Assembly (NCBI RefSeq): GCF_900009145.1
Contig: NZ_LN889812.1
Span: forward strand, 220,650-284,649
Direction: 5' to 3'
DNA from: Planktothrix tepida PCC 9214
Lineage (GTDB): Bacteria; Cyanobacteriota; Cyanobacteriia; Cyanobacteriales; Microcoleaceae
Length of the DNA: 64,000 bases
Under the pieces are notes generated by a model that was given only the letters and a program-made list of their open reading frames with translations, was not told the origin of the DNA and made no database searches. Position 1 is the first letter of the stretch; every line of letters begins with the position of its first letter. A program made the position numbers and the translations under genes. This document shows positions 28,307 through 55,751 of the stretch, piece by piece.

Positions 28307-28316
28307 TTTTCTTTCT

Positions 28317-28354: not shown

Positions 28355-28453
28355 TTCTAAAAGCAACCTATGATTTGAGATAATTTTCCCCAAATGTATT
28401 AAAATCTGATTATTAAAGCTAATAACCCTAAGAAATCAATTACTCCTATTATA

Positions 28454-29857: not shown

Positions 29858-29862
29858 CTCTG

Positions 29863-31197
29863 ATGACTCAACTCTTAAATCAAGCTTTATATCAAAACTC
29901 TATTGATTTGATTTTAGAACAATTAAATCTTGATTCTGCCTTTTTTAAAACCCTACCCCGTTTTCAACGGATGAATTATAAAGCTACGGTTAGGTTTTTG
30001 AGTGACTATAAAACTCATTCAGATGAACAATCTTCACAAAAAGTCAACAATAGCTTATACGCTTTACATCACCTGTGTACAATTCCCGAATGGGTACTAA
30101 CTGATTCTACTATAATCACTATTTTTGAACTTCCTATTGCTATTAATCCTTCTACGACTAATCTATTACTCCCTTTATCTGAATATCTATCTTTCAAAGG
30201 TTCTTATCAAACTTTACTGGGGGTCACTCAAGAAATTATAGATTCATTAAAAACCAGTAGCAAGGTTTTAAATGATATTTTACTTTTAAAAGCTATAACG
30301 TTAAGTAGTTTAAATCAAAATCCGACACAGGTTTTTCAGATTCTTGAAGAAATTTCTGCTACATCCCATCCTCAATCTTTACAACATATAAAAGCAAATT
30401 GCCATTTAGCAATGTATCAAGTTTCCTTGGGAAATTATCAAGATGGAATCAGGAACTTGCAAAAATGGTTAGTGATTATTGATGAAAATTTGAAGCATCA
30501 AAATCTAGCTCAATCAGATTTTCAGCTTGATGATATTAAAACGGGAATGCTTGAGATTTTGGCTTATTATGAAATGAATGCTAGTCATTTTGATCAAGCT
30601 TTAGAAATTTATGAGCAAGTTATTAGCCTCAGAAAAGAACGGGGATTAATTCATCGAATAATTACTCCACAAGTGCATCAAGGCATTATTTTACGGAGAA
30701 AAGGACAGTATGACCAAGGAATTAAAATTTTGCAAAATGCTCAAGAAAAAGCGCAACAAATTAACGATATTCAAGCTCAAGTGTTTATTGCTCATCATTT
30801 AGGTTATATCTATCTTAACCAAAGAAATTTGACAGAAGCAAAAAAATTAGCAACAATAGCCTTTGAAGGGTATAAAAAATTAGATGATTTCCGAGGAATT
30901 TCTGATTGTTATGAACAATTAGGTCTGATTAATCTAGCAGAAAATGATGGTGAAACGGCTATCCAAAATTTTAAAATAGCACTAGAAATTAGACAAACCA
31001 TTTTTAACTTGCATGGAACAGCTAGTTGTTTATTGGATTTAGCTTTAGCTTATTGGTATCAAAAACAAATTCTGAAATCCTTTTTCTTCTTAATTAAAGG
31101 CTTTCAATCCTATGCTCAAGTTGGAATTTTAAATGGCGTTAGATTCAGGCGAATGCTAAAAATAGCTTATACTTGGATTCTGGGTAGACCAAACTAA
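29863..31197 (+). CDS. TPR protein, partner of the NB-ARC ATPase at 28454
   Basis: A 444-residue soluble helical protein. TPR units are clear from ~140 onwards (YQVSLGNYQDGIRNLQKW, ASHFDQALEIYEQVISLRKE, GIILRRKGQYDQGIKILQNA, LGYIYLNQRNLTEAKKLA, INLAENDGETAIQNFKIALE). It starts 5 bases after the STAND stop, so it is almost surely co-transcribed. Separate ATPase and repeat polypeptides suggest that the sensor module acts in trans. The N-terminal ~130 residues are helical but not recognisable. Confidence 0.75.
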   Translation: MTQLLNQALYQNSIDLILEQLNLDSAFFKTLPRFQRMNYKATVRFLSDYKTHSDEQSSQKVNNSLYALHHLCTIPEWVLTDSTIITIFELPIAINPSTTNLLLPLSEYLSFKGSYQTLLGVTQEIIDSLKTSSKVLNDILLLKAITLSSLNQNPTQVFQILEEISATSHPQSLQHIKANCHLAMYQVSLGNYQDGIRNLQKWLVIIDENLKHQNLAQSDFQLDDIKTGMLEILAYYEMNASHFDQALEIYEQVISLRKERGLIHRIITPQVHQGIILRRKGQYDQGIKILQNAQEKAQQINDIQAQVFIAHHLGYIYLNQRNLTEAKKLATIAFEGYKKLDDFRGISDCYEQLGLINLAENDGETAIQNFKIALEIRQTIFNLHGTASCLLDLALAYWYQKQILKSFFFLIKGFQSYAQVGILNGVRFRRMLKIAYTWILGRPN

Positions 31198-36852: not shown

Positions 36853-41945
<5,093 letters not shown>

Positions 41946-42076
41946 AAAAATATTCTTTATTTATTGCTTGAGAATTGTTAGTAATAACCATAGTGGCAGC
42001 TAGGAGAATAGCTGAATTAGGATTTTACCACTTCTAGCAATATTGGAGCGATGCCTCGTGAACTACCCACACTTCT

Positions 42077-43324
42077 CTACGAGTAGAGACGTGCCATGGC
42101 ACGTCTGTACGGGCTTCCAACTTCGACGGGGATAGCATCTGATAGAACAAAAGTTTTACCAGATGACTTACATCCCCTCAGATTGGCAGTGTCGCTAGTT
42201 CCTAACGACAGAATCCGCAAGGCTTCATTTTTGATATTAATTGAAGCATTTATATCTCGATCATGGAGAGTTTGGCAATTTTCACAAGTCCAACTTCTAA
42301 TATCAAGGGGTAAACTACCCACTTGATTAAGGCAGACATTACAAGTTTTAGAAGAAGGGAAAAACCGATCAATTTCGATATAGGTTTTCCCTTCTTTTTC
42401 GGCTTTGTACTTCAACATTGTACAGAACATTCCCCAACCACAATCACTAATTGCCTTAGCTAATTTAGGGTTTCTGACCAGATTCTTAACTGCCAGATCT
42501 TCTACAGCAAGTACAGACGTGCCATGGCACGTCTCTACGTTTTCGTTAACTATCTTGCGGGATAGCTTGTGCAGAAAATCTTCTCGGCAACGAGCGATTT
42601 TAGCGTGGAGTTTAGCAACTTTTAATCGGGCCTTTTGTCTACTATTACTCCCTTTTTGTTTACGAGATAATTTTTGTTGTTTTCGTTTTAAGTTGTGTTG
42701 ATGTTTGGCAAAGTGTTTGAGGTTACTATATTTATCACCATCACTGGTAATTGCAAAATGGGTTAATCCTAAATCAATCCCAATCGCTTTTCCATTAGTT
42801 GATGAATTAGGTATTTCCTTGCCATCATCAACCAAGATGGATGCGTAGTATTTCCCGTCACGATTCTTTGAGATAGTAACGGTTTTAATTGTCCCCTCAA
42901 ATTCTCGGTGGCGACGACAATAAATCAACCCAATCTTGCCGGGTAATTTCAGATAATCCCCTTCAAAGGTAACATTTTGAGGATAACTGATTGATTGTCT
43001 ACCGTGTTTGGATTTGAATTGAGGTAATCTAGCCCGTTTTTCAAAGAAGTTTTTGTAAGCGGTAGATAAATTAAGAGCGACAACTTGTAAACATTGAGAA
43101 TAGGCATCTTTTAACCAAGGATATTCCTTCTTCAGTTGAGGTAATAATCCTTGAATCGCTTTTCTTGATAACCCTTTTCCTGTTTGTTTATAAGTTTCTT
43201 GACACAAATTCAGGGCATAATTCCAATACCAACGACAACAGCCAAAGCTTTTGGCTAAGACAATCTGATGTTCAATCGTTGGATAGATTCGGAACTTATA
43301 CCCTTGAAACATTATCGCTTTCAA
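42077..43324 (-). CDS. tnpB: TnpB, RNA-guided nuclease of an IS200/IS605-type element
   Basis: A 415-residue TnpB (OrfB). The RuvC triad is intact: Asp184 in GIDLGLT, Glu275 in AVEDLAV and Asp357 in DRDINAS. The zinc-finger CxxC...CxxC (TCNVCLNQ, WTCENCQTLHD) is complete and the N-terminal helix-turn-helix region (YKFRIYPTIEHQ) is present. TnpB proteins cut DNA guided by an ωRNA made from the element end. No tnpA lies nearby, so it is an orphan. Two copies of a 20-base palindrome sit inside the gene in frame: one encodes CHGTS just before Glu275, the other forms the last residues (AMARLYS). The element ends are not resolved. Confidence 0.92.
   Translation of the reverse strand: MKAIMFQGYKFRIYPTIEHQIVLAKSFGCCRWYWNYALNLCQETYKQTGKGLSRKAIQGLLPQLKKEYPWLKDAYSQCLQVVALNLSTAYKNFFEKRARLPQFKSKHGRQSISYPQNVTFEGDYLKLPGKIGLIYCRRHREFEGTIKTVTISKNRDGKYYASILVDDGKEIPNSSTNGKAIGIDLGLTHFAITSDGDKYSNLKHFAKHQHNLKRKQQKLSRKQKGSNSRQKARLKVAKLHAKIARCREDFLHKLSRKIVNENVETCHGTSVLAVEDLAVKNLVRNPKLAKAISDCGWGMFCTMLKYKAEKEGKTYIEIDRFFPSSKTCNVCLNQVGSLPLDIRSWTCENCQTLHDRDINASINIKNEALRILSLGTSDTANLRGCKSSGKTFVLSDAIPVEVGSPYRRAMARLYS
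42087..42106. repeat. 20-base palindrome AGACGTGCCATGGCACGTCT, copy 1
   Basis: A perfect palindrome at the 3' end of tnpB, flanked by TAG and GTA so that the symmetric unit extends to about 27 bases. It encodes the C-terminal residues of TnpB. It is also within the stretch where an ωRNA would be expected, so it could be part of the element end. Confidence 0.85.
42515..42534. repeat. 20-base palindrome AGACGTGCCATGGCACGTCT, copy 2 inside tnpB
   Basis: Identical to the copy at 42087-42106 but in the middle of the tnpB RuvC region, encoding about residues 264-270 (ETCHGTS). Flanks are GTAC...CTAC. A degenerate third copy is present at 47236-47260 in glcD. Confidence 0.9.
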
Positions 43325-43388
43325 AACTATTAGATATAATCTAACATATTATTGTTAATTTTGTCGGGATTCACCGCTTAAAATTAAC

Positions 43389-43474
43389 TTGGGGGAGTCC
43401 ATGTAACCCACACTGATTTGGTGGTTATCTTTTGGTGAGTGTGAAATTCAGTGTGGGACTTATCGCTCCCCCAA
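43389..43474. repeat. Large nested hairpin between tnpB and the EamA gene
   Basis: Outer arms TTGGGGGAG (43389-43397) and CTCCCCCAA (43466-43474) enclose inner arms CCCACACTGATTT (43407-43419) and AAATTCAGTGTGGG (43444-43457). The foldback spans ~86 bases in a 289-base spacer. It may be a miniature element or part of the insertion-sequence end. A TTAGAT-ATA-ATCTAA palindrome (43330-43344) also sits right before tnpB. Confidence 0.6.
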
Positions 43475-43613
43475 ACCCCCTCGTCAGTTAAAATACTTAA
43501 TCTTCTATTATAGAATCAAGCTTAATCAGGTATATTGTAGAATAACTTGCAATATGTAGTCTGAGCATCACCAAGTATATACTTGCCGTTCAATCAACAT
43601 TCCTTAATAAATT

Positions 43614-44594
43614 ATGACTATCACAGTCAATGTTCCAGAAGTACAAACTGAAACAAAACCAACTCTGAACACTTTACTGTTAATTCCCCTAGCAGTATTT
43701 ATGTTGTCTCTAGCACCAATATTTATCAGAGTCAGCGAACAAGAAATTAGTCCTAATGCTACAGTCTTTAATCGGTTTTTGATTTCTACTGTCATCCTTG
43801 GGGTTTGGGAGATCATCACAATTATCAGTAGTAAAGTATCCCAGAAACCCCCTAAACCCCAGGAGTCTTGGACTCTTCAGGATATAGGATTATTTGTACT
43901 AGCTGCGGGTTTTGGTGCGGCTAATTTAACGGCTTGGGCTTGGTCTTTAACTCAAACCAATATCGCTAATTCCAATTTATTGCATAATTTCACCCCATTC
44001 TTTGCCACTTTAGGCGGTTGGCTATTTTTAAAACACAGGTTTGACAGCAAATTTATTATGGGTTTGATTTTAGCTTCAGTCGGTGCGTTAACTATTGGTT
44101 TTGAAGATTTTAACTTAACGAGCACTCATTTTAGAGGAGATGCGATCGCTTTACTTTCATCTGTATTTTATGCGGGCAATGCTCTCTGTGCAGAAAAACT
44201 ACGAGCTAAGTTTTCGGCAACAACTATCATATTATGGAGTTGTTTGTTCAGAACTCTTTGGCTGTTACCCATAACTTTGATTTTTGATGATCAAATTTTT
44301 CCCATTTCCGTGAATGGATGGTTAGCCGTAATTTCCCTCGCACTTTTCTGTCAAGTTCTAGCGACGGTGATTATGTTCCATAACCTGAAAAAGTTTTCAT
44401 CAGGTTTTGTATCTTTGTTTCTGTTGCTTGATCCAATTATTACTGCCATATTAGCCTGGGTAATATTTTCCGAAAAACTCACTATCCTCAACTGGGTAGC
44501 GTTTTTTGCCGTGTTGGCTGGGATATATTTAGCTAAATCTGCTCAAGGTTCTCAGAAAGCAGCCATTCAAGAAATTACTGTTGACTCAGACTAA
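43614..44594 (+). CDS. EamA/DMT family transporter
   Basis: A 326-residue membrane protein of the drug/metabolite transporter superfamily. About ten hydrophobic segments and two EamA repeats can be seen (LLIPLAVFMLSLAPIFIRVS at 22-41; LILASVGALTIGF and GDAIALLSSVFYAGNALCAE in the second half). Members export metabolites or drugs. It is divergent from tnpB and precedes the hydroxylase gene by 85 bases on the same strand, so it could export the product of the surrounding lipid/polyketide pathway. That link is inference. Confidence 0.82.
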   Translation: MTITVNVPEVQTETKPTLNTLLLIPLAVFMLSLAPIFIRVSEQEISPNATVFNRFLISTVILGVWEIITIISSKVSQKPPKPQESWTLQDIGLFVLAAGFGAANLTAWAWSLTQTNIANSNLLHNFTPFFATLGGWLFLKHRFDSKFIMGLILASVGALTIGFEDFNLTSTHFRGDAIALLSSVFYAGNALCAEKLRAKFSATTIILWSCLFRTLWLLPITLIFDDQIFPISVNGWLAVISLALFCQVLATVIMFHNLKKFSSGFVSLFLLLDPIITAILAWVIFSEKLTILNWVAFFAVLAGIYLAKSAQGSQKAAIQEITVDSD

Positions 44595-44679
44595 ATATTT
44601 TTGTCTCGGCTCCAATGCTAAATCAGTAATAAAAATTAGCAAATTTCAGCACCCCCTACTCTCTGTTTCTAAACATTCC

Positions 44680-45717
44680 ATGACACCAGAATTAACAACT
44701 TGGGTAGCAGACCTAGAAAGATTACTAGGTCAAATTCTTGAATATTTTCGCAGTCAAATCTTCCATCACCTTAATGGTAGCCGTCGCCTTTATTGGCTAT
44801 ATTTATTAACTTCTCTGTTATTGGCTGGACTGGTTTATTGGCGATCGCAACCTAAGTCTGATCTTAACTTTAAAGGATTTCTTAGTTTTTGCTTCCCCAA
44901 AGAAATCTACTTTCATCCTTCAGCCCTGCTAGATTATCAAATCTTTATCATCAATAATATTCTCGCTCCTGGTAATTTGCGTTTAGCGTGGTTTGAAACA
45001 TCATTAGTAGCATCTCTAGTCAATAATTGGCTGCAAGCAACCTTTGGTTATTTTGGCGGATTCACAACCGAAAACTTGGGATCGCTCGTGATTTTTACCC
45101 TCTTATTTGTTGCAGTTTTTGACTTTGCATCTTACCTTAACCATGCTTGGCATCACCAAAATCCTATCCTGTGGCAATTTCACAGTCTACATCATTCCAG
45201 TGAAGTCTTGACCCCCATTAGTTTATATCGTTCTCACCCCTTATATGAACTTAATAAAAAGCTGATTACTACAGCCATCAGCGCTCCTTTACAAGGGATA
45301 CTAATTTATCTATTTTTTGGTAAAATCCATGTTATAACTCTATTTGGTCTGAATTTTTTGGTCGCTCTATATTATATGGCAGGTGGTAATCTTGCCCATT
45401 CTCACATCTGGCTTGATTATGGAAAGATAGGGAACCATATTTTTATAAGTCCAGTTCTACACCAAATTCATCACAGCATAGCACCCCAACACATTAACAA
45501 GAACTACGGGGAGTTTTTGGGAATTTGGGACTGGATGTTTGGGACTTTATATCTACCCGAAAAAGAGGAAAAATTAGAATTTGGTATTGGCAAAAACCAA
45601 CCTCAGCCTTATCCGACTTTAACCCAGGCTTATTTAGATCCGGTAGTCAATGCCATTAATTTACTAATTGCCAAAATTCCTGGAAAAAGTGGAATTAAAA
45701 CCATTAACTTGGATTAA
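44680..45717 (+). CDS. Sterol desaturase / fatty acid hydroxylase family protein
   Basis: A di-iron membrane oxygenase of ~345 residues counted from ATG 44680. An upstream TTG frame exists (44581) but would overlap the EamA gene and lacks family-like sequence. The histidine clusters are clear: LNHAWHH (HxxxHH), FHSLHHSSEV (HxxHH) and PVLHQIHHSIAPQH near the C-terminus. Several membrane helices lie between. The family hydroxylates or desaturates lipid chains and sterols using O2. The substrate here is unknown. The adjacent FAAL/PKS/desaturase genes suggest an acyl or polyketide substrate. Its stop is 5 bases before the glutamate-cysteine ligase gene. Confidence 0.82.
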   Translation: MTPELTTWVADLERLLGQILEYFRSQIFHHLNGSRRLYWLYLLTSLLLAGLVYWRSQPKSDLNFKGFLSFCFPKEIYFHPSALLDYQIFIINNILAPGNLRLAWFETSLVASLVNNWLQATFGYFGGFTTENLGSLVIFTLLFVAVFDFASYLNHAWHHQNPILWQFHSLHHSSEVLTPISLYRSHPLYELNKKLITTAISAPLQGILIYLFFGKIHVITLFGLNFLVALYYMAGGNLAHSHIWLDYGKIGNHIFISPVLHQIHHSIAPQHINKNYGEFLGIWDWMFGTLYLPEKEEKLEFGIGKNQPQPYPTLTQAYLDPVVNAINLLIAKIPGKSGIKTINLD

Positions 45718-45722
45718 ATATT

Positions 45723-46844
45723 ATGCTATTAACGAAAGGCTTTGAATTAGAAATATTTCTGGGTACTCCCCAAGGTGATCCGATTCCTTTGGCTGAAAAA
45801 ATTATCGGCAAAGTGGATAGGTTTATGCAAGAAACAGACGAGCGCCATATAGAATATACAACTGAACCTCTTGCCAGCTATAACCAGCTTTTAAGTCAAT
45901 TAATATTACCGCGAATTCAACTCAGAAAATATCTCCAAACCTTGGGAGAATATACCCTAATTCCTGGAAGTACATTATCATTAGGAGGAAGCGATCGCTT
46001 TTATCGTTCAGGAGATACAAATCCTTATTTAGAATATATTGAGCGCAACCACGGAACTAATGTGGTTACTGCTAGTGTTCATATCAACATTGGTTTTAGT
46101 GATCCAGAACTGCTGATCCGAGCTTGTCGGCTGATTAAAATGGAAGCACCCTTATATTTAGCCTTAAGTGCTTCCTCTCCATTTCTGGATAATCAAATTA
46201 CGGGTTATCACTCTACACGCTGGCACATTTTACCCCATTCTCAATATCATATTCCCCTATTTGAAAATCAGGCCGAATATATTGAATGGGTAGAAGGACA
46301 TTTAGCCACAGGAACAATGTTTAATGTTCGTCATCATTGGGATAATGTTCGACCCAATGGCGATCGCCGACCTTATGATCTTAATCGGCTAGAACTCAGA
46401 ATTTGTGATTTAGTGACAGATCCTCATTCTCTTCTGGCTATTACCGCTTTGTTAGAAGCGCGGCTTTTGCAATTGATTAATGATCCGAGAATTGACCCTT
46501 TAGAAATGAGTCAATTACCAGCAACAACCCGGAAACAAGACTTAATTGATTTAACAAAAGCGAATGAAGCCGCCGTCAAAGTATCTAGTTTAGAAGCTGA
46601 GTTAAGACATTGGCAAGACGGTAGAAAAATTCTAGCTCGACATTGGATTAATGAAATTTATAATGATGTTTTGCCCTTCGTAAAACAGCAAGGCTTTGAG
46701 CATTTTCTCTTACCTATACAAACAATTTTACAGGAAGGAAATACTGCACAAAAGTGGTTAAAAATGTATGATCAAGGTACTGATATTCGCTCAATTATTA
46801 CCCAAGATATTCAAGAACTGGTCAAGCAAGAACTTGACCATTAA
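45723..46844 (+). CDS. gshA: Glutamate-cysteine ligase, cyanobacterial type
   Basis: A 373-residue protein of the cyanobacterial glutamate-cysteine ligase group, the first step of glutathione synthesis. Typical segments: LLTKGFELEIFLGTPQGDPI, HIEYTTEPL, LIPGSTLSLGGSDRF, NVVTASVHINIGF, GYHSTRWHILPHSQYHIP, TMFNVRHHWDNVRPNGDRR and LNRLELRICDLV. The length matches the family. It is placed only 5 bases after a membrane hydroxylase gene, an arrangement that may be coincidental or may signal a thiol-conjugation step in the neighbouring pathway. A glutaredoxin gene lies just downstream on the opposite strand. Confidence 0.85.
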   Translation: MLLTKGFELEIFLGTPQGDPIPLAEKIIGKVDRFMQETDERHIEYTTEPLASYNQLLSQLILPRIQLRKYLQTLGEYTLIPGSTLSLGGSDRFYRSGDTNPYLEYIERNHGTNVVTASVHINIGFSDPELLIRACRLIKMEAPLYLALSASSPFLDNQITGYHSTRWHILPHSQYHIPLFENQAEYIEWVEGHLATGTMFNVRHHWDNVRPNGDRRPYDLNRLELRICDLVTDPHSLLAITALLEARLLQLINDPRIDPLEMSQLPATTRKQDLIDLTKANEAAVKVSSLEAELRHWQDGRKILARHWINEIYNDVLPFVKQQGFEHFLLPIQTILQEGNTAQKWLKMYDQGTDIRSIITQDIQELVKQELDH

Positions 46845-46859
46845 GGCAGGTATTCTACA

Positions 46860-46898
46860 TCCCACGCTTGAAAGACGTGGGCTTTGAATACTGTTATT
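46860..46898. terminator. Hairpin between convergent gshA and grxC genes
   Basis: CCCACG-CTTGAAAGA-CGTGGG, framed by GTATTC and GAATAC, forms a two-step stem in the 49-base spacer between two convergent stops. It likely terminates both genes. Its form also resembles the hairpin ends of IS200/IS605-type elements. Confidence 0.6.
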
Positions 46899-47151
46899 GT
46901 AAAAGTTCGTCCAGTTTTCCCTGCTTATCTAATGCGGAAATATCGTCAAAACCACCAATATGTTGATCATTGATGAAAATTTGAGGAACACTCCGTCTGC
47001 CATTAGCTCGTTCTGCCATCTTAGCTCTAGCGTCTTCATCCCCATCAATAGAGTATTCAGTAAATTCAACCCCTTTCTTCTTAAGTAAGGCTTTGGCTCT
47101 AGGGCAAAAAGGGCAATAAGTCCAAGTGTAAATTTCTACTTTAGCCGTCAT
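46894..47151 (-). CDS. grxC: Glutaredoxin 3 (GrxC)
   Basis: An 85-residue dithiol glutaredoxin with active site CPFC (Cys13/Cys16) in TWTYCPFCPRAKALL, the cis-proline SVPQIF and GGFDDISAL glutathione-binding motifs. It reduces disulfides or protein-glutathione adducts using glutathione. Its position beside a glutamate-cysteine ligase gene fits a shared thiol metabolism. It is divergent from glcD with 38 bases between the starts. Confidence 0.95.
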   Translation of the reverse strand: MTAKVEIYTWTYCPFCPRAKALLKKKGVEFTEYSIDGDEDARAKMAERANGRRSVPQIFINDQHIGGFDDISALDKQGKLDELLQ

Positions 47152-47201
47152 GGTATGTTTAATCGAGGGATATCGTTTTTTATTTTAGCGTGATCGACAA
47201 A

Positions 47202-48701
47202 ATGATTAATCAGAATATCGCCTCTCCTCTACAAGTACAGAAGAGCCATGGCGTGTCTCAATGGCAAAAAATTGCCCCAAAATTTGAGGCGGTTGTGGGT
47301 AAAAAAGGAGTTGTCCAACGTCAGGAAGAATTGCTCACCTATGAATGTGATAGTTTAACAAGCTATCGTCAACGTCCCGCATTAGTGGTACTACCCCGCA
47401 CTACTGAACAAGTAGCAGAGGTAGTAAAAATCTGTTATGAAAACCAAATTCCTTGGGTGACGCGGGGTGCGGGAACAGGTTTATCTGGAGGTGCACTACC
47501 CGTTGAAGATTGTGTTTTAATTGTCACCACCTTAATGAACAAAATCTTAAAAGTTGACCTAGAAAATCAGCGAATTATTGTGCAAGCTGGTGTGATCAAT
47601 AATTGGGTGACTCAAGCCATTAGTGGTAAAGGTTTTTATTATGCACCAGATCCTTCCAGTCAAACGGTTTGTACAATTGGGGGTAACATTGCGGAGAATG
47701 CGGGGGGTATTCATTGCTTGAAATATGGAGTAACAACGAATCATGTCTTGGGATTAAAATTGGTAATTCCTGACGGTTCTGTAGTTGATGTTGGGGGAAT
47801 CATTTCAGAAATGCCCGGTTATGATCTCACGGGTTTATTTATCGGTTCAGAAGGCACTCTAGGTATTGCCACAGAAATTACTTTACGCATTATTAAAACA
47901 CCTGAAGCCATTGGTACTGTTCTAGCAGACTTTACCACTATTGAAGCCGCAGGTGATACGGTTACTCATATTATTAGTGCTGGAATAATTCCGGCGGCAA
48001 TGGAATTAATGGATGGGACTACGATTAAAGCGATTGAAGATGTTATTAATACCGGATGTTATCCTAGAGATGCTGAGGCAGTTTTGTTGATAGAGGTTGA
48101 TGGTTTAGCAGTAGAAGTTGAAAGCAGTAAACAGCAGGTTGCTAAAATTTGCCAACAAAACGGAGCCAGAAATGTAATCATTGCTAGTGACGAACAAAGG
48201 CGAATCAAACTTTGGCAAGGACGTAAAACAGCCCTAATTGCATTAGGTTATCAAAGTCATTATTTTCTTCAAGATGGAGTGATCCCTCGGACTCAATTAG
48301 TCGCTGTTCTTAAGGAAATTTCAGCTTTAGGAAATCAATATGGGTATCGTATTGCTAATGCCCTTCATGCGGGTGATGGCAACTTACATCCAGTCATTCT
48401 TTATGATCATTCCGTTCCTGGTGCTTTTAAACAGGTTGAAGAATTAAGTGGCGAAATTCTAAAACTTTGTGTGAGAGTGGGTGGAAGTATTTCTGGAGAA
48501 CATGGTATTGGTGCTGATAAAAAATGTTTGATGCCGGAAATGTTTAATCATATTGATTTAGATACCATGCAATGGCCGCGCCTAGCTTTTAATCCTCAAG
48601 GTTTGGCAAATCCAGGTAAGATGTTTCCCACACCTCCGACTTGTGGTGAAGCTGCACAGGCTCAAAAAATGGGGCGGTTTTCAGATTTAGAAGTATTTTA
48701 G
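47202..48701 (+). CDS. glcD: FAD-linked glycolate dehydrogenase subunit GlcD
   Basis: A ~499-residue FAD-binding (vanillyl-alcohol oxidase-type) protein. The FAD domain is marked by PWVTRGAGTGLSGGALPV and CTIGGNIAENAGGIH. The C-terminal part carries NALHAGDGNLHPVILYD and GEHGIGADKKCLMPEM, characteristic of GlcD and D-lactate dehydrogenases. It oxidises photorespiratory glycolate to glyoxylate. The ATG at 47202 is preferred over a GTG at 47190. A degenerate palindrome (see 47236) lies in the first 20 codons (VQKSHGVSQW), upstream of the conserved domain, so function is probably intact. Confidence 0.9.
   Translation: MINQNIASPLQVQKSHGVSQWQKIAPKFEAVVGKKGVVQRQEELLTYECDSLTSYRQRPALVVLPRTTEQVAEVVKICYENQIPWVTRGAGTGLSGGALPVEDCVLIVTTLMNKILKVDLENQRIIVQAGVINNWVTQAISGKGFYYAPDPSSQTVCTIGGNIAENAGGIHCLKYGVTTNHVLGLKLVIPDGSVVDVGGIISEMPGYDLTGLFIGSEGTLGIATEITLRIIKTPEAIGTVLADFTTIEAAGDTVTHIISAGIIPAAMELMDGTTIKAIEDVINTGCYPRDAEAVLLIEVDGLAVEVESSKQQVAKICQQNGARNVIIASDEQRRIKLWQGRKTALIALGYQSHYFLQDGVIPRTQLVAVLKEISALGNQYGYRIANALHAGDGNLHPVILYDHSVPGAFKQVEELSGEILKLCVRVGGSISGEHGIGADKKCLMPEMFNHIDLDTMQWPRLAFNPQGLANPGKMFPTPPTCGEAAQAQKMGRFSDLEVF
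47236..47260. repeat. Degenerate third copy of the CCATGG-centred palindrome in glcD
   Basis: TACAGAAGAGCCATGGCGTGTCTCA matches the tnpB copies (TACAGACGTGCCATGGCACGTCTCT) at most positions, including the CCATGG centre and CTACAAGTACAG-type flank. It is in frame in the N-terminus of GlcD. Confidence 0.65.
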
Positions 48702-48857
48702 TGATCTGGGTTTTGGGGAGTAGGGGGCGAGGCGTTTGTCTATGAAGCAGGAGTACCCACTGCCATTAGTGAAACGTTGACAGTGGTACTTCACTTAGGC
48801 ATTGTAACAATGGTAGTATGTCGTAGATGTGCTGTATATAGCTTTTGAGTATTAATA

Positions 48858-50603
48858 ATGGGGAAAATAGAAAAAAGGGATTTAACTTTAGTAGAAATAC
48901 TACGGGATCAGGCCGTTGCTCAACCTAACCAAATAGCATTTAAGTTTCTTCCAAATGGAGAACAAGAATCAGATCAATTAACCTATCAAGAATTGGATCA
49001 AAAAGCCAGAGCAATTGCCTATCAACTGGGTCAGAAAATTAATCGGGGCGAAAGAGTATTATTATTATATCCACCCGGTTTAGAATTTATTAGTGCTTTT
49101 TTTGGATGTTTATATGCTGATGCGATCGCAGTTCCTGTTAATCCTCCTCGACCCAACAGACCAGCAACTCGGCTTTTAACAATCAAATCAGATTCACAAG
49201 CAACATTAGCACTAACTACAACATCTCTATTCAGCAAACTCAAATCACAACTAACTCATTATCCCGAATTAGCAACTTTACCTTTAATAGTTAGCGATGA
49301 AATTAGTATTGATCTAGCTTCAAATTGGGAGAAATCAACAACAACAATAGATTCTTTAGCTTTTCTCCAATACACATCTGGATCGACAGGAACACCAAAA
49401 GGAGTAATGGTAACTCATGGTAATTTACTCCACAATTCGCAGTATATCAAACAAGCCTTTCAACTGACACAAGACAGTATATCGGTTAGCTGGCTACCCA
49501 GTTTTCATGATATGGGTCTAATTGATGGAATTATTCAGCCTTTGTACACCGGATTTATGGGCGTATTGATGAAACCCGAAAGTTTTATCCAACACCCTTG
49601 GCGATGGCTACAGGCAATTACAAACTACAAAGCAACCCACTGCGGCGGGCCTAATTTTGCCTACGATCTTTGCGTTCAGAAGATTACCAATGAACAACTT
49701 GAAACCTTCGACCTCAGTAGCTGGGAAAGTGCTTACAGTGGTTCTGAACCCGTGCGGAGAGAAACTTTAGAGCGTTTTATTGCTAAATTTGCCCCTTGTG
49801 GTTTCCCGGCTAAGAGTTTTTATCCCTGCTATGGGATGGCTGAATCTACCTTAATGATTTCAGGGGGACTGGTTCAAGAAGAACCCATTTACTGCACCGT
49901 TGCAGCCGACGCATTAGAGCAAAATGGGGTGACAGAAGCATCTAAAGACGTTGAAAATGTTAGACATCTCGTTGGATGTGGACGAGGTTGGCTAGATACC
50001 AAAATTGTCATCGTTGAACCCGAATCTTTTCAGCAATGTCATTCAGGTCAAGTCGGGGAAATCTGGGTATCGGGTGAAAGTGTTGCCCAAGGCTATTGGA
50101 ACCAACCGGAACTTTCAGAACAAGCCTTTGGAGCTTATCTAGCAGATCCTCATCATGGGCCGTTTCTCCGCACTGGAGATCTAGGATTTTTGCGAGAGGG
50201 TGAGCTATTCATCACGGGACGGATGAAAGATATGATTATTATTAGAGGTCGCAATTATTACCCCCAAGATATTGAAATAACAGTAGAAACCAGCCATCCA
50301 GCGTTGCGAGGCAATTGTTGTGCAGCTTTTGCAATAGAAAAAGATAATACAGAGCAGTTAGTCATAGTAGCTGAAGTCGAACGGACACATTTACGACATC
50401 TGAATGTCAAAGAGGTCGTAGCAGAAATCGGCGAAGCCATCATGCAGCAACATGAAATCCAGGCTTATGGCACGGTACTGATTAAAACGGGGAGTATTCC
50501 TAAAACTTCCAGTGGCAAAATTCAACGGCGTATTTGCAAAGAAAAGTTTCTGTGCGAAACTCTCAATATTGTCGGGGGAAAGATTGGAAAATCGGAGTTA
50601 TAA
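48858..50603 (+). CDS. Fatty acyl-AMP ligase (FAAL)
   Basis: A 581-residue adenylate-forming enzyme of the FAAL type. The P-loop-like FLQYTSGSTGTPKGVMVTHG, the YPPGLEFISAFFGCLYAD and LPSFHDMGLIDGII segments, CYGMAESTLMISGG and GEIWVSGESVAQGYW are FAAL hallmarks. The C-terminal domain shows GRMKDMIIIRGRNYYPQDIE and TSSGKIQRR. FAALs activate a fatty acid as acyl-AMP and hand it to an ACP phosphopantetheine. It opens a run of seven plus-strand genes (four desaturases, an ACP, DUF302), and the stand-alone ACP at 54887 is the likely acceptor. A TTGACA box lies at 48777-48782, about 75 bases upstream of the ATG, but the spacing to a -10 is poor. Confidence 0.93.
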   Translation: MGKIEKRDLTLVEILRDQAVAQPNQIAFKFLPNGEQESDQLTYQELDQKARAIAYQLGQKINRGERVLLLYPPGLEFISAFFGCLYADAIAVPVNPPRPNRPATRLLTIKSDSQATLALTTTSLFSKLKSQLTHYPELATLPLIVSDEISIDLASNWEKSTTTIDSLAFLQYTSGSTGTPKGVMVTHGNLLHNSQYIKQAFQLTQDSISVSWLPSFHDMGLIDGIIQPLYTGFMGVLMKPESFIQHPWRWLQAITNYKATHCGGPNFAYDLCVQKITNEQLETFDLSSWESAYSGSEPVRRETLERFIAKFAPCGFPAKSFYPCYGMAESTLMISGGLVQEEPIYCTVAADALEQNGVTEASKDVENVRHLVGCGRGWLDTKIVIVEPESFQQCHSGQVGEIWVSGESVAQGYWNQPELSEQAFGAYLADPHHGPFLRTGDLGFLREGELFITGRMKDMIIIRGRNYYPQDIEITVETSHPALRGNCCAAFAIEKDNTEQLVIVAEVERTHLRHLNVKEVVAEIGEAIMQQHEIQAYGTVLIKTGSIPKTSSGKIQRRICKEKFLCETLNIVGGKIGKSEL

Positions 50604-50663
50604 ATTCCTTGAGTTTTAAATTTTCCCCTGCTATTTAAACCTAGGTAAATTGAGGAAAGATCA

Positions 50664-51650
50664 ATGTCTATACCCGTGGATAGCCCAACACCCAATATAA
50701 GCCCCAAGATCACCCTAGAAAATGATTATCTTAAATCCCTGCAACAGCGTTACGCCTTTGCTACTATCTTGATTCCTTTTTTTGGGTTATTAATAGCCAT
50801 TTATACAACTTTTAAGTTTGGGATCAGTTCAGTAGACATTGGACTATTTCTGGTCATGTATACCTTGACAATGCTGGGAATAACAGTGGGTTTTCATCGA
50901 CATTTTGCTCACGGTGCTTTTAAGACAAATACAGTCATTAGAATCCTGTTAGCAATATTAGGATGTATGTCCGCTCAAGGGCCTGTTATTCAATGGGCAA
51001 GTATTCACCGTCGGCATCATAAGTATAGCGATCGCCCAGGGGATCCCCACTCCCCCTTAATATACAAAGGAGAAAAATGGGCAACTCTGCGGGGATTGTG
51101 GCATGGTCAAGTTGCTTGGATGTTGAACAGTGACGTTACCAATACGGTTGTTTTTGCTAAAGACTTGCTCAGAGATCCAATAATTACCAAAGTCAATCGT
51201 TTCTATCTGACTTGGGTTATCCTGGGTTTAGCCATTCCGGCAATTGTAGACGGACTTCTCACGGGAACTTGGATAGGCATTTTACAAGGATTTCTCTGGG
51301 GGGGATTGGTGCGAATCTTTTGGGTTAATCATGCCTTTTGGACGATTAACTCCATTGCTCACTATTATGGACAACGCCCCTTTGATACCGAAGAGCAAAG
51401 CCACAACACATTCTGGCTATCTCTAGCCAACTTTGGAGAAGCTTGGCATAACAATCATCATGCTTTTCCACACTCAGCCTTGTTAGGTCTGAAATGGTGG
51501 CAAATTGATATTGGCGGTGGGGTGATTCTGGCTCTCCAAAAAGTAGGTTTAGCTTGGGATCTCAAAACCCCCACAGCCGGGATGATTGCAGAAAAGTTGA
51601 AGGTTAACAAACAGTCAGAAAATTTAACAATAGATGCCAGCAATTTCTAG
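50664..51650 (+). CDS. Membrane fatty acid desaturase, paralogue 1
   Basis: A 328-residue acyl desaturase of the Δ9/DesC-like family with three histidine boxes: HRHFAH (VGFHRHFAHGAF), HRRHH (SIHRRHHKYSDRPGDPHSP) and HNNHHAF (EAWHNNHHAFPHSA). Four or more hydrophobic helices are visible. It is preceded by GAGGAAAG at 50652-50659. It is the first of four tandem paralogues directly after the FAAL gene. In bacterial polyyne clusters such desaturases act on ACP-bound chains and some make alkynes (acetylenases). Whether this one makes double or triple bonds cannot be read from sequence. Confidence 0.9.
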   Translation: MSIPVDSPTPNISPKITLENDYLKSLQQRYAFATILIPFFGLLIAIYTTFKFGISSVDIGLFLVMYTLTMLGITVGFHRHFAHGAFKTNTVIRILLAILGCMSAQGPVIQWASIHRRHHKYSDRPGDPHSPLIYKGEKWATLRGLWHGQVAWMLNSDVTNTVVFAKDLLRDPIITKVNRFYLTWVILGLAIPAIVDGLLTGTWIGILQGFLWGGLVRIFWVNHAFWTINSIAHYYGQRPFDTEEQSHNTFWLSLANFGEAWHNNHHAFPHSALLGLKWWQIDIGGGVILALQKVGLAWDLKTPTAGMIAEKLKVNKQSENLTIDASNF

Positions 51651-51721
51651 TAAACTTGACTGAATCCGGATTTTTTCACTGCCAAATTTTTGTATTGCGT
51701 CATCTATTAGGAGTTCAGAGA

Positions 51722-52675
51722 ATGACAACACATTTCGATACTGCCATACCCAATCAGAAGACAAAGGTTATTAGCAATGACTACATTAAAGGACTGCAAT
51801 ATAAACATTTTTGGTGGTACAATTTCATTCCCTTTTTAGGAACAATTGTGGCGATCATTTCTCTTTTGTGGCTACCCATTGGGCCAATCGAGATCGGAAT
51901 GCTGATTGTGATGTGGGCTTTGACCATGACCGGGGTGAGTGTCGGTTTTCATCGCTACTATACCCATCGTGCTTTTAAAACTCACCAGAGCATTCGGGTG
52001 ATATTCGCCATATTGGGTTCTGTAGCTGCCCAAGGGCCCTTAATTTCCTGGGTAGCCGTTCATCGTCGCCATCATGAGTGCAGTGATCTACCCGGTGATC
52101 CCCATTCCCCTAATCTTCACGGTCAGGGATTTCTCGGAACTCTCAAGGGATTATGGCATTCCCATGTTGGCTGGCTGATTGATCATGATTATCCTAATCC
52201 AACCTATTATGCCCCTGAACTCCTGCGAGATCAAAGCATATCCAAAATTAGCCGATTGTATCTAGTTTGGGTGCTTCTGGGTCTAGCGATTCCTACTATG
52301 ATCGGCGGACTACTTCATTTGTCCCTAATAGGAGCATTGCAAGGCTTTCTTTGGGGTGGTGTTGTGCGCCTGTTTATTGTAGATAACATCATATTGAGCG
52401 TTAATTCCGTCTCTCATGTTTATGGGACTCGTGGTTTTAAGACAGGCGATCAAAGCAAGAATAACCCTTGGGTGGCTATCCCAACGTTTGGCGAGTCTTG
52501 GCAAAACAATCACCATGCGTTTGAAAGCTCTGCTGCTATCGGTTTGAAAGGGTGGCAAATTGATATTGGTTATGCAGTAATTTGGATCTTGGAAAAATTA
52601 GGCTGGGCTTGGGATGTAAATCTGCCCACCGCCAAGATGATAGAGGCGAAAACAATTACCCTAGCTCAGGATTAA
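51722..52675 (+). CDS. Membrane fatty acid desaturase, paralogue 2, with altered third histidine box
   Basis: A 317-residue desaturase counted from ATG 51722, chosen because AGGAG lies about 10 bases before it. The frame opens further upstream (51656) but without family-like sequence. Boxes: HRYYTH (VGFHRYYTHRAF), HRRHH (AVHRRHHECSDLPGDPHSP) and QNNHHAF (ESWQNNHHAFESSA). In box 3 the first His is Gln (Q261, 52502-52504), whereas paralogues 1, 3 and 4 keep His. Loss of a metal-ligand position may alter or impair catalysis. The fourth conserved site NSVSHVYG is intact. It follows paralogue 1 closely and belongs to the same operon. Confidence 0.87.
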   Translation: MTTHFDTAIPNQKTKVISNDYIKGLQYKHFWWYNFIPFLGTIVAIISLLWLPIGPIEIGMLIVMWALTMTGVSVGFHRYYTHRAFKTHQSIRVIFAILGSVAAQGPLISWVAVHRRHHECSDLPGDPHSPNLHGQGFLGTLKGLWHSHVGWLIDHDYPNPTYYAPELLRDQSISKISRLYLVWVLLGLAIPTMIGGLLHLSLIGALQGFLWGGVVRLFIVDNIILSVNSVSHVYGTRGFKTGDQSKNNPWVAIPTFGESWQNNHHAFESSAAIGLKGWQIDIGYAVIWILEKLGWAWDVNLPTAKMIEAKTITLAQD

Positions 52676-52712
52676 AGTCCCGACTACAAAACTTATGTAG
52701 GTTGAGCCAACA

Positions 52713-53645
52713 ATGCAAGCAATCACAATTAAAAGCGATCGCCTGAAAAGACAACAAGAAATTCACGGCATCAGCAATCTCATCATTCCCTTAAGCGGAT
52801 CTGTAGCAGCAGTAGTCCTGGCTTTTCAGATCGGTGTTAGTGCCGTAGATATCTGGCTATTGCTAATTATGTATTTTTTAACAGCGATTGGCGTAACAGT
52901 AGGGCTGCATAGACACTTTGCCCACTGCGCCTTCGGGGCTAATCAGACGGTGAGAATTATCCTGGCTGTCCTGGGTTCTATGGCCGCAGAAGGCCCCCTC
53001 AATTATTGGGTAGCCACCCATCGCCGTCACCACAAATACAGCGATACCCCCGGAGATCCCCATTCTCCCTTTGTTAAAGAAGAGCAAAAATTGGGCTTTT
53101 TAGAAGGTGTATGGCATTCTCATGTCGGTTGGACATTCAATCATGAACTCACGAACACCTTTGTCTTTGCTAAAGACATGGTGCGAGATCCCATGCTGAA
53201 CAGAATTAGCCAACTTTATTATTTGTGGCTATTTTTGGGAGTAGCGATTCCTGGTGTTATTGGTGGAGTAATCACCGGAACTTGGATGGGGGCGTTGACC
53301 GGAACATTATGGGGCGGCTTTCTCCGTATCTTCCTTCAACACCATTTAGGTTTTTGGACGGTTGGCTCTCTGGCCCATCTCTTAGGAAATCGTCCCTTTG
53401 AGACTGACGACTATAGCCGCAATAACCTCTGGGTTGCCTTGTTCACCTGTGGAGAATGGCACAACAACCACCATGCTTTTCCTTATGCGGCTATTCATGG
53501 TTTCCACTGGTGGCAAATCGATGTCGGTGGCTTCGTGATTCGACTACTGGAAAAGCTAGGTTTGGTTTGGGACTTGAAAATGCCTACAGCCGAAGCGATC
53601 GCCGCTAAAAAAAGAAAGGTGAGTTGTAATGAAGCCTGCAACTAG
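52713..53645 (+). CDS. Membrane fatty acid desaturase, paralogue 3
   Basis: A 310-residue desaturase with boxes HRHFAH (VGLHRHFAHCAF), HRRHH (ATHRRHHKYSDTPGDPHSP) and HNNHHAF (CGEWHNNHHAFPYAA). Before box 3 it has CGEW instead of the usual GEAW/GEGW pattern, one residue shorter. TVGSLAHLLG supplies the extra conserved His. The C-terminal residues are Lys-rich with a Cys pair (KKRKVSCNEAC). It shares operon position and overall length with its neighbours. Distinct N-terminal sequences suggest early divergence rather than a very recent duplication. Confidence 0.9.
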   Translation: MQAITIKSDRLKRQQEIHGISNLIIPLSGSVAAVVLAFQIGVSAVDIWLLLIMYFLTAIGVTVGLHRHFAHCAFGANQTVRIILAVLGSMAAEGPLNYWVATHRRHHKYSDTPGDPHSPFVKEEQKLGFLEGVWHSHVGWTFNHELTNTFVFAKDMVRDPMLNRISQLYYLWLFLGVAIPGVIGGVITGTWMGALTGTLWGGFLRIFLQHHLGFWTVGSLAHLLGNRPFETDDYSRNNLWVALFTCGEWHNNHHAFPYAAIHGFHWWQIDVGGFVIRLLEKLGLVWDLKMPTAEAIAAKKRKVSCNEACN

Positions 53646-53711
53646 CCTTCAAGTTGAGCATTAAACCCAGAAAAGCAATGATTAACCGCAATCATAAACC
53701 TAGCTGATCCA

Positions 53712-54677
53712 ATGATTACAGAGCCTCTTGTTAATCCAGACAAAAGACAAAAAACCGTCACAGCCCCTCACCTGAGAGTTCCTCAAACCATACACTTCAT
53801 CTTGTTTGAAGTTGTACCTTTTTTGGGATTCATCACCGCCATTGTTTTACTATTGTTCGGAATTCCTATGACTTGGGTGGACTTAGGGCTGTTTATCAGT
53901 TTGTGGTTCTTAACTCAAATTGGCTTTACTGTGGGTTGGCATCGCCTTTTTAGCCATAATGCGTTTAAAGCTAATGTCGTTGTTAGAGTGACCTTAGCAA
54001 TTCTAGGTTCTATGGCAGCCCCTGGCCCCTTGCTGTTGGCAGTAGCCGCCCATCGTCGTCATCATGAATATGCCGATCAACCCGGAGATCCTCATTCTCC
54101 CCATCTTTTTGGAGAAGGAGTTACGGATCAGATCAAAGGCTTTTGGCACGCTCATGATGGCTGGTTAGCGACCAACAGAGAACACCCCAATACCATCCAC
54201 TATGTTCCAGACTTACTGCGGGACAAAGCCCTAACAACAGCGAGCCGATATTATTGGCTGTGGGTGATTTTAGGACTGGTCATTCCTGCTATCCTAGGCG
54301 GTGTTTTGACAAACTCATGGCTGGGAGCTTTTCAAGGCTTTCTTTGGGGAGGACTGGTGCGGATGTTCTTTGTCAATAACCTCATCAATGGCGTCAACTC
54401 TTTTTGTCACGTCCTTGGCGGTCGCTCCTTTAATACCCCTGATCACAGCCGGAACAATCTCTGGCTGGCTCTTCCTTCCTTGGGTGAAGGATGGCACAAT
54501 AGTCACCATGCTTTTCCGCAATCAGCCATTTTTGGTTTCGACTGGTGGCAAGTTGATATCGGGGGCTGGGTTGTCCTCATTTTAGAAAAGCTGGGTTTAA
54601 TTTGGGATGTCAAGATTCCTAAAGCCGATACTATCAAAGCTAAAAAAGCTTTTTTAGCAGCTAGAAAGGCAACATAG
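53712..54677 (+). CDS. Membrane fatty acid desaturase, paralogue 4
   Basis: A 321-residue desaturase with HRLFSH (VGWHRLFSHNAF), HRRHH (AAHRRHHEYADQPGDPHSP) and HNSHHAF (EGWHNSHHAFPQSA). Compared with its neighbours the residues between the histidines differ (HRLFSH, not HRHFAH; NS, not NN), again pointing to functional split among the four. A hydrophobic helix pair precedes box 1 and another pair lies between boxes 2 and 3. It is the last desaturase before the ACP, 209 bases upstream of it. Confidence 0.9.
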   Translation: MITEPLVNPDKRQKTVTAPHLRVPQTIHFILFEVVPFLGFITAIVLLLFGIPMTWVDLGLFISLWFLTQIGFTVGWHRLFSHNAFKANVVVRVTLAILGSMAAPGPLLLAVAAHRRHHEYADQPGDPHSPHLFGEGVTDQIKGFWHAHDGWLATNREHPNTIHYVPDLLRDKALTTASRYYWLWVILGLVIPAILGGVLTNSWLGAFQGFLWGGLVRMFFVNNLINGVNSFCHVLGGRSFNTPDHSRNNLWLALPSLGEGWHNSHHAFPQSAIFGFDWWQVDIGGWVVLILEKLGLIWDVKIPKADTIKAKKAFLAARKAT

Positions 54678-54886
54678 CAGGATACTAAAATCTATCTCGT
54701 CTACTGTCTTAATTATGAACCTAATTTTCTTGTTTTAGAAATTTAATGTTCACTCATAAAAACCCAGAAAAAAACCCAGAAATTTAGGTTTATAATTTAG
54801 GGAAGGGACTTTTAACGACCCAATCCATTGCTCCCATTTTTGGTGAGCAAAATTTTTATCCCAGACCCATTCAGGAAAAAATTATC

Positions 54887-55159
54887 ATGGCAATTCAAAA
54901 TCAAGAAATCGCTGTTGAAACCCACAAGAACCAATCTGCTATTCAAGCTTGGTTGGTTTCTTATATAGCCCAACTTCTGGAAATTGATCCCAATGAAGTT
55001 GATGTTAAAGCTTCTTTTGACCGCTATGGCTTGGATTCCTCAGCGACTATTGGATTAACTAGCGATTTAGAGAACTGGTTGGGAGGTTCTATTGATCCAA
55101 CCATAACCTATGATTACCCCTCAATTGAGTCTTTATCAAAATATCTAGCTGGATTATAA
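54887..55159 (+). CDS. Stand-alone acyl carrier protein
   Basis: A 90-residue carrier protein. The phosphopantetheine serine is Ser51 in DRYGLDSSATIGL, a D-S-S variant of the usual D-S-L that is typical of ACPs paired with FAAL enzymes (JamC-like proteins, from memory). The rest (SDLENWLGGSIDPTITYDYP, SIESLSKYLAGL) is PKS-type carrier sequence. AGGAAA lies upstream of the ATG. It is the presumed acceptor of the FAAL-activated fatty acid and carrier of the chain during desaturation. A strong hairpin follows it. Confidence 0.93.
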   Translation: MAIQNQEIAVETHKNQSAIQAWLVSYIAQLLEIDPNEVDVKASFDRYGLDSSATIGLTSDLENWLGGSIDPTITYDYPSIESLSKYLAGL

Positions 55160-55184
55160 GCTAATTCAGGTCTGAAAAAAAATA

Positions 55185-55215
55185 TTAAACCCCTTGCTAT
55201 TGGCTAGGGGTTTAA
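55185..55215 (+). terminator. Hairpin terminator after the ACP gene
   Basis: TTAAACCCCT (55185-55194) pairs with AGGGGTTTAA (55206-55215) around an 11-base loop, 25 bases after the ACP stop and before the DUF302 gene. It could end the operon or attenuate transcription into DUF302. Confidence 0.8.
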
Positions 55216-55259
55216 AAATTAGATATTTAAAATATTTGTAAAAGCCGAAATTAACAGAT

Positions 55260-55751
55260 ATGGAAACTATTAATTTCACCGTAAACCACATAAAAGTGTC
55301 TTCAGAAAAATCCTTTGCCCAAGTCACCACGGCTATAGAGTCAATGGTTGGTAAAGCTAATAATCTGATTTTTCAAAAGTTGATAGATGCAAATGCCTCT
55401 TTTACAGAAGTAGAAAATGCAGTTAAATCAATGGTGGGTAAACATGATTTAATGATTTTTACACACCTTGAATCTGGTAAAGTGCTTTCCTTATGTGGCA
55501 AATTTAAACAAGCTAAACTTTATATAATTGGTAATCCCCTGATTGCGAATCAAATGTTTGAAGAAGACCCGGCAGTCGGTCTTTACGTTCCCCTGCGATT
55601 GTTTGTGTATGATGAATATAATGGCAAAACTTATATTACCTATGATCAACCTTCATCTCTATTAGGTAGATTTGAGAATCCGAAAATTTTGAGAGTTGCA
55701 GAAATGCTCGATCAAAAGCTCCAAGAATTAGTGACAATGGCTGTTCAATAG
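55260..55751 (+). CDS. DUF302 family protein with an internal duplication
   Basis: A 163-residue soluble protein. The C-terminal half has the DUF302 pattern: KLYIIGNPLIANQMFEEDPA, VGLYVPLRLFVYDEYNGKTY, ITYDQPSSLL. The N-terminal half carries a near-repeat: SFAQVTTAIESMVGKANNLI (residues 18-37) and SFTEVENAVKSMVGKHDLMI (47-66), so part of the domain was duplicated. DUF302 function is unknown. It follows the ACP after a hairpin, so its membership in the FAAL/desaturase operon is uncertain. Confidence 0.8.
   Translation: METINFTVNHIKVSSEKSFAQVTTAIESMVGKANNLIFQKLIDANASFTEVENAVKSMVGKHDLMIFTHLESGKVLSLCGKFKQAKLYIIGNPLIANQMFEEDPAVGLYVPLRLFVYDEYNGKTYITYDQPSSLLGRFENPKILRVAEMLDQKLQELVTMAVQ

Follow-up and report, generated by a model that had tools for sequence, protein, structure and literature searches.

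What can a cyanobacterium make with four membrane desaturase genes lying in tandem beside a fatty acyl-AMP ligase (FAAL)? The question is raised by a stretch of 64,000 nucleotides from Planktothrix tepida PCC 9214 (contig NZ_LN889812.1, positions 220,650 to 284,649), analyzed over its full length and here called the window, in which the FAAL gene is followed by the desaturase genes (Des1 to Des4), a stand-alone acyl carrier protein (ACP) gene and a gene for a DUF302 protein. The unit extends upstream of this cassette, and the cluster comprises positions 36954-55751. We consider it rather likely that this is a horizontally moved biosynthetic gene cluster, in which a chain handled by the FAAL, the ACP and Des1-Des4 would be passed to a linked polyketide synthase (PKS), and a second glutamate-cysteine ligase (GshA) would have a protective role. 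The product is probably a lipid with high unsaturation that may also be triple-bonded and thiol-reactive.

A cluster shared by four genomes

An original prediction, made from the letters of the window alone, had described seven tandem genes on the plus strand between 48858 and 55751, and both their order and their coordinates were confirmed; the linked PKS, EamA transporter, fatty-acid hydroxylase, glutaredoxin, second gshA and second glcD had been overlooked. To map the distribution of such loci, 388 genomes of the order were searched for relatives of Des1 (match at E <= 1e-58; up to five candidates per genome scored), and 59 of them gave matches. Sixty regions were mapped in addition to the window, representing 51 of the 58 other matched genomes and one unmatched genome; the matched genomes outside the map (G070, G089, G094, G123, G139, G168 and G217) have one match each. 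A core of FAAL, desaturase and ACP was common in the mapped regions, mostly with one desaturase and sometimes with two or three. The tandem of four followed by DUF302 was found in four of the 388 genomes, namely the window genome (G000), a second genome of the same genus (G002), and two genomes of another family of the order (G206 and G275). The original prediction had put four desaturases above the number in alkyne cassettes, and four in tandem is indeed the largest number seen. A class-wide draw of 388 genomes, with G002 not among them, yielded no further ortholog of Des4, the identities falling from 93% in G206 and G275 to 50% or less.

The same four genomes hold the PKS, recognized by its luciferase-like monooxygenase (LLM) and thioesterase (TE) part at 82% identity or more, the next-best match outside them among the 388 being 71% and confined to the LLM. 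That tandem cassette and LLM-TE PKS are carried by the same four of 388 genomes favors a functional tie between them, and the idea of the cassette as a self-contained maker of acyl-ACP without a megasynthase was dropped once the linked PKS had been found. In G000, G002 and G206 the PKS and the cassette are close together; in G275 the PKS opens a separate contig. All four genomes also have the EamA gene, the second gshA, the second glcD and the cluster-type glutaredoxin, and three have the fatty-acid hydroxylase. The order PKS-EamA-(hydroxylase)-GshA-glutaredoxin-GlcD is kept, and in G206 the block from FAAL to DUF302 is inverted relative to the block from PKS to GlcD, so that the two blocks stay together through rearrangement.

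Second copies and horizontal transfer

Housekeeping copies of gshA and glcD were present in all 18 genomes searched, with 56-63% (gshA; in G004 in two pieces, of 61 and 48%) and 67-71% (glcD) identity to the cluster copies, and each of the four cluster genomes has one additional gshA and one additional glcD. In trees of 14 rows for GshA and for GlcD, the cluster copies formed one fully supported clade, apart from the 10 housekeeping rows. In the comparison of G000 with G206, identity is 90.1% for the cluster GshA and 87.3% for the cluster GlcD, but 67.1% and 78.4% for the respective housekeeping copies. Synonymous divergence (dS) agreed with this: relative to G206 it was 0.39-0.57 for eleven cluster genes, against 2.5 (near saturation) for housekeeping gshA and 1.0 for glcD, and relative to G002 it was 0.056-0.092 for ten cluster genes, against 0.125 and 0.237, respectively. 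The cluster gshA and glcD thus being closer between two families than their housekeeping counterparts, the data point to horizontal transfer of the set; the dS comparison with G206 covers the cluster genes other than PKS and glutaredoxin, and there are two control genes, which are few, but both agree.

For the 10 genes compared with G002, the ratio of nonsynonymous to synonymous divergence (dN/dS) was 0.04-0.22, and for the 11 compared with G206 it was 0.09-0.33, so the genes compared are under purifying selection. These low values, together with conservation of the gene order in G002, G206 and G275 at 73-99% amino acid identity, argue that the cassette is not a chance array.

Genes of the cluster

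The features of the cluster are collected in Table 1.

Table 1. Features of the cluster at 36954-55751 of the window.
Feature	Position	Strand	Assignment and evidence
Type I PKS, 1663 aa	36954-41945	-	Ketosynthase (KS)-acyltransferase (AT)-ACP-FMN luciferase-like monooxygenase (TIGR04020)-TE (Pfam, NCBIfam); single extension module
EamA-family transporter, possible exporter	43614-44594	+	Pfam
FA_hydroxylase, membrane oxygenase	44680-45717	+	PF04116 (Pfam)
Second gshA (glutamate-cysteine ligase, cyanobacterial)	45723-46844	+	TIGR02048, 550 bits (cut-off 249)
Glutaredoxin 3, cluster type	46894-47151	-	TIGR02181, 124 bits (cut-off 90)
Second glcD (FAD-linked glycolate/2-hydroxyacid dehydrogenase)	47190-48701	+	TIGR00387, 561.3 bits (just below cut-off, 567.9)
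FAAL, JamA-like	48858-50603	+	AMP-binding, 231.6 bits (Pfam)
Des1	50664-51650	+	Canonical His boxes, HNNHH; Asn at the SCD1 NSAAH site
Des2	51722-52675	+	Third box QNNHH
Des3	52713-53645	+	VGSLAH (Asn to Gly at metal-site position); third box GE-WHNNHH, one residue short
Des4	53712-54677	+	Canonical ligands; 93% identity to G206
Stand-alone ACP, JamC-like	54887-55159	+	PF00550 (PP-binding), 52.8 bits; GLDSS motif
DUF302 protein, 163 aa	55260-55751	+	PF03625, 46.6 bits

The best match of the FAAL in the PDB was 7r7g (residues 11-573, E 3.9e-183), FAAL structures thus aligning along almost its entire length, and its adenylation motifs YTSGSTG, YGMAE, TGD and KTSSGK were read; fatty-acid--AMP ligase models stood near the top of its NCBIfam matches, none of those listed reaching its cut-off. 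The four desaturases scored 55-87 bits with the Pfam FA_desaturase model. Des2 was listed from a TTG at 51656, and its homologs in G002, G206 and G275, of 317 aa, support the ATG at 51722. Counted from this ATG, the intergenic gaps measure 37-71 bases from FAAL through Des4, with about 210 before ACP and 100 before DUF302. A promoter scan was uninformative (28 found, 35.7 expected), and terminator-like sites numbered 21, with 10.9 expected. Orthologs of the DUF302 protein occur at 90-99% identity in G002, G206 and G275, with no match in three other cassette genomes searched; sequence searches matched it to 1q9u (3e-5) and 7tj1 (8e-5), and it contains an internal repeat (SFAQVTTAIESMVGK / SFTEVENAVKSMVGK).

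Upstream of the cassette, the PKS scored 493.8 bits with the NCBIfam model seco_metab_LLM (cut-off 244.45), and the motifs TACSSS, ETHGTA, GYSLG, AFHS, GLKS and GHSLGA were read across its KS, AT, ACP and TE domains. Among 18 genomes searched, orthologs of EamA (90-99%; 90 and 91% in G206 and G275) and of the glutaredoxin (95-100%; in a separate comparison 96 and 94% in G206 and G275) were confined to the cluster genomes, the next-best matches being 53% and 81%, respectively. For GshA and GlcD, identity to the G206 and G275 copies is 90% and 87%, respectively, in both genomes. The hydroxylase, listed from a TTG at 44581 and for which we chose the ATG at 44680 as start, has 97% identity in G002 and about 83-84% in G206, the other genomes of 16 searched giving 35-37% or no match.

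Between PKS and EamA, the window cluster carries on the minus strand a TnpB gene (42077-43324), which was rejected as a cluster member, being of IS200/IS605 type and having no counterpart at this site in the other three genomes. Further upstream (27296-31197) are genes for a CHAP/RTX protein, an NB-ARC/NACHT-like NTPase and a TPR protein, with about 88% identity to G002, compared to 96-99% for the cluster genes.

Phylogeny and metal sites of the desaturases

The desaturase set comprised 149 open reading frames (ORFs), of which 130 were distinct, and a tree of 104 was built by a quick method with SH-aLRT support only; the G002 and G275 orthologs, many housekeeping rows and loci L058, L070, L085 and L163 were left out of it. 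For the locus tallies, the ACP of L046, L051 and L055 was assigned by hand from tblastn matches. The window genome (6,781,855 bases in 191 contigs) has seven other genes with PF00487, two of which are in the tree, the other five being too distant or not fetched.

Des1-Des4 all fell within a group of 69 rows (96%), 64 of them from loci with a FAAL or a small ACP, and five FAAL- or ACP-linked rows lay outside it. A branch with 97% support set apart nine rows that include the two other PF00487 genes of the window genome. All four desaturases hence belong to the cassette-associated group and not to the housekeeping type, and a grouping with housekeeping DesC, an outcome that would have counted against the original prediction, did not appear. 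Each window desaturase joined its own G206 ortholog first. Beyond this, Des1 grouped with L131, L132, L134 and one gene of L135 (90%), Des2 with the QNNHH type (L040, L147 and the single-desaturase loci L041, L133, L140 and L153), Des3 with L040 and L147, and Des4 loosely with rows of L055 and L172 (80%). A recent tandem duplication of one gene was rejected on this pattern and on the mutual identities of Des1-Des4, of about 45-53%; judged from their sequences, they are old paralogs.

Alignment with SCD1 (4ymk) placed Des1 Asn229 at the Asn of NSAAH and Des1 His262 at the first His of HNYHH, both of which we take to be metal-site residues of SCD1. At these positions, Des3 has Gly in place of the Asn and Des2 has Gln in place of the His in all four cluster genomes. 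The description of the four enzymes as three-histidine-box desaturases consequently fails, strictly, for Des2. Across the data set, ligand changes affected 14 of 35 rows from multi-desaturase cassettes, 5 of 34 from single-desaturase cassettes and 2 of 35 without FAAL or ACP, counts in which the rows are not independent. As a marker of multi-desaturase cassettes the changes were therefore rejected, showing a tendency only. L045 and L175, from two genomes of one family, hold desaturases in which Arg occupies the SCD1 Asn metal-site position and the third box is shortened; no FAAL or ACP was detectable at these loci, and the genes beside the desaturases are alike in length (466-487 and 1037-1048 aa).

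Relation to known systems

According to the accessible parts of two papers, FAAL-desaturase-ACP sets form alkynes in JamABC, in which the FAAL JamA, the desaturase/acetylenase JamB and the ACP JamC feed a PKS/nonribosomal peptide synthetase (NRPS), and in polyyne systems (PMC8406139, PMC11837247). The likeness to JamABC drawn in the original prediction was upheld, as a FAAL, a stand-alone ACP and membrane desaturases make up that layout, and a linked PKS is shared as well (near the cassette in three of the four genomes). JamABC, however, has a single desaturase, whereas this locus has four (likened to JamB by description only) and a DUF302 gene after the ACP, and it has one monooxygenase-TE PKS together with gshA, glutaredoxin and glcD.

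The proposed equivalence to clusters of the caryoynencin and protegencin type found no support. As set out in the accessible part of a survey, the common set of bacterial polyyne clusters consists of jamABC, two further desaturases, a thioesterase and a rubredoxin (PMC8406139). With those for caryoynencin, cepacin, collimonin, ergoyne and protegencin, the locus shares the FAAL, the ACP and several desaturases, with three beyond jamABC, by count and family, where the polyyne clusters have two; unlike them, it has a linked PKS, and a TE only as the C-terminal domain of this PKS. Since no separate thioesterase was found among the genes of 43614-55751 in Pfam and NCBIfam scans, and no paired CxxC rubredoxin-like motif (our own motif) in the six frames of 30000-62000, we do not place the locus in the polyyne set, although it may work like a polyyne cluster.

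Other FAAL-desaturase-ACP cassettes (L131, L137, Aquabacterium L051, Burkholderia sp. TSV86 L055 and plasmid 2 of Polaromonas sp. JS666) share the core and relatives of Des1 and Des3, with one to three desaturases; three were seen in the cyanobacterial loci L135 (no FAAL within its contig) and L137, and in L051. The form with four desaturases and DUF302 and with gshA and glcD was seen in the four cluster genomes only. Several of these cassettes have methyltransferases resembling cyclopropane fatty acid (CFA) synthase, which the window cluster lacks; such genes, named from their first residues and from the Polaromonas annotation, follow the ACP in L131 (three), L137, L051 and L055 (by start). 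Counting L202, one to three lie near the ACP in loci of both cyanobacteria and proteobacteria, possibly as a cyclopropane or methyl-branch module acting on the acyl-ACP. Long ORFs follow the cassette in many relatives with one to three desaturases, and KS-like starts were read, outside the domain scans, in L131, L137 and L040. On the Polaromonas plasmid, the annotated line-up is FAAL, desaturase, ACP, CFA-synthase-like gene, second desaturase, KS and PKS.

For P. tepida PCC 9214 itself, the orphan clusters PPL2 (8 kb) and PPL3 (6.2 kb), named 'Planktothrix PKS-like', are given in the accessible part of one report as sizes with 'no significant similarity in databases' (PMC5259702), the word 'desaturase' being absent from its main text; the window PKS may be one of the two. 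Unknown NRPS/PKS genes are noted for the lineage of this strain in the accessible part of another (PMC9366434). No description of the cluster was found in the portions of PMC8406957 and PMC9366434 available, nor in a literature search whose coverage excluded most subscription papers, so that its absence is unproven.

Proposed pathway

The following flow from FAAL through ACP and desaturases to PKS draws on what is known of the protein families. The FAAL would adenylate a free fatty acid and load it on the stand-alone ACP, where the membrane di-iron enzymes Des1-Des4 would act in turn on the bound chain to give a conjugated polyene, enyne or polyyne, Des2 and Des3, with their altered ligands, being candidates for the odd step (conversion of a double into a triple bond, or a restricted oxidation). 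From the ACP, the chain would then go in trans to the PKS, whose KS would accept it for one extension, with malonate as the likely extender judging from the AFHS motif of the AT, which we take to be malonate-specific. The luciferase-like monooxygenase would oxygenate the extended chain, at a site that we guess to be next to the carboxyl carbon, and the TE would release the product. In some strains the hydroxylase may tailor this product, and EamA is its possible exporter. GshA and glutaredoxin may shield the producer from an electrophilic product via glutathione, a thiol-based protection to which the presence of a second gshA points. The second GlcD could oxidize a 2-hydroxyacyl product, or be a product-tolerant replacement. 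An acetylenic product is plausible. In a more specific version, which we put forward only tentatively, cyanobacteria would have assembled a polyyne or polyenyne pathway of their own, independently of the published proteobacterial and actinobacterial polyyne clade, with the altered-site Des2 (His to Gln) and Des3 (Asn to Gly) as dedicated acetylenases or their partners and with glutathione genes in the cluster for self-protection.

Several observations weigh against the proposed pathway as a whole. The substrate form and the acetylenase activity that it predicts are not readable from sequence, and the ligand changes, occurring also in single-desaturase cassettes and outside cassettes, are not diagnostic of polyyne formation. 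The PKS lies about 7 kb from the cassette on the opposite strand, so hand-over in trans is assumed, and neither a redox partner nor a regulator turned up among the cluster genes. Glutaredoxins at 65% identity or more number three in G206 and four in G275, compared to two in G381, which belongs to the genus of both. G000 and G002, however, hold two each, as do seven of eight genomes of the window genus; a surplus in all four cluster genomes was thus rejected, and the protective role is weakened. Furthermore, three of the four copies have lesions or insertions, the full core set of cassette and PKS being intact in the window alone. About 80 residues, among them those surrounding the catalytic His, are missing from the AT of G206 (the gap is in-frame, in a PKS at L179 9910-14682). 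Des4 of G275 (L129 1233-1979) is broken near its N-terminus, matching from residue 65 on, with N-terminal residues in another frame and about 50 missing; this genome also has no hydroxylase between EamA and gshA, and only a 35% match elsewhere. In G002, a gene for a 403-aa TnpB-like protein, different from the TnpB of the window, interrupts the operon between Des4 and ACP (L039:11587-12798). The pathway may therefore be decaying in the other carrier genomes.

Alternative explanations

A real, though lesser, possibility is that the cassette makes a polyunsaturated acyl chain with double bonds only. All four desaturases are of the acyl-CoA/DesC-like superfamily, Des1 and Des4 retain every canonical ligand, and four enzymes could make four double bonds; on the other hand, alkynes are formed by the related JamABC and polyyne sets, and a second gshA would be less expected with a plain polyene.

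The role of the second copies could also be biosynthetic instead of protective, GshA joining an amino acid to the lipid and GlcD oxidizing a 2-hydroxyacyl intermediate. We find this doubtful, as the gshA copy scores more than twice the cut-off of the cyanobacterial gshA equivalog and a glutaredoxin adjoins it in all four genomes, even though GshA is an ATP-dependent carboxylate-amine ligase, the monooxygenase domain preceding the TE could yield a hydroxy acid for GlcD, and G000 and G002 have no surplus of glutaredoxin.

Slightly less probable still is that two neighboring pathways travel together, the genes from FAAL to DUF302 giving a free acyl product or lipid and those from PKS to GlcD acting separately. 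The opposite strand of the PKS, the block inversion in G206, the separate contigs in G275, the damaged AT of G206 and the assumed nature of the hand-over would all fit such a separation, but both blocks occur in exactly the same four of 388 genomes, and dS is similar for genes of the two.

Desaturases are housekeeping enzymes in cyanobacteria and seven other PF00487 genes are present in the genome, yet ordinary membrane-lipid desaturation, with the four genes adjusting membrane fluidity, is very improbable and was rejected on the tree, which sets Des1-Des4 apart from the two other genes included, and on the sporadic distribution and the linkage to FAAL, ACP and PKS.

Significance

The four-desaturase cluster with PKS, gshA and glcD, proposed above to make a possibly thiol-reactive lipid, is a new, larger form of the known FAAL-desaturase-ACP type. 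A 2021 survey, as far as its accessible part goes, assigns no gene cluster to the cyanobacterial fischerellins, which are polyynes (PMC8406139). Inheritance of a second gshA and glcD along with the cluster hints at a logic of self-protection or tailoring that is unmentioned for JamABC or the polyyne clusters in the accessible parts of the literature compared. Together with its relatives, the cluster forms a natural series with one, two, three and four desaturases, which bears on how many enzymes make which unsaturation, and Des2, Des3 and their relatives are natural metal-site variants of membrane desaturases. Compact and open to test, the cluster is a candidate source of highly unsaturated lipids in a cyanobacterium.

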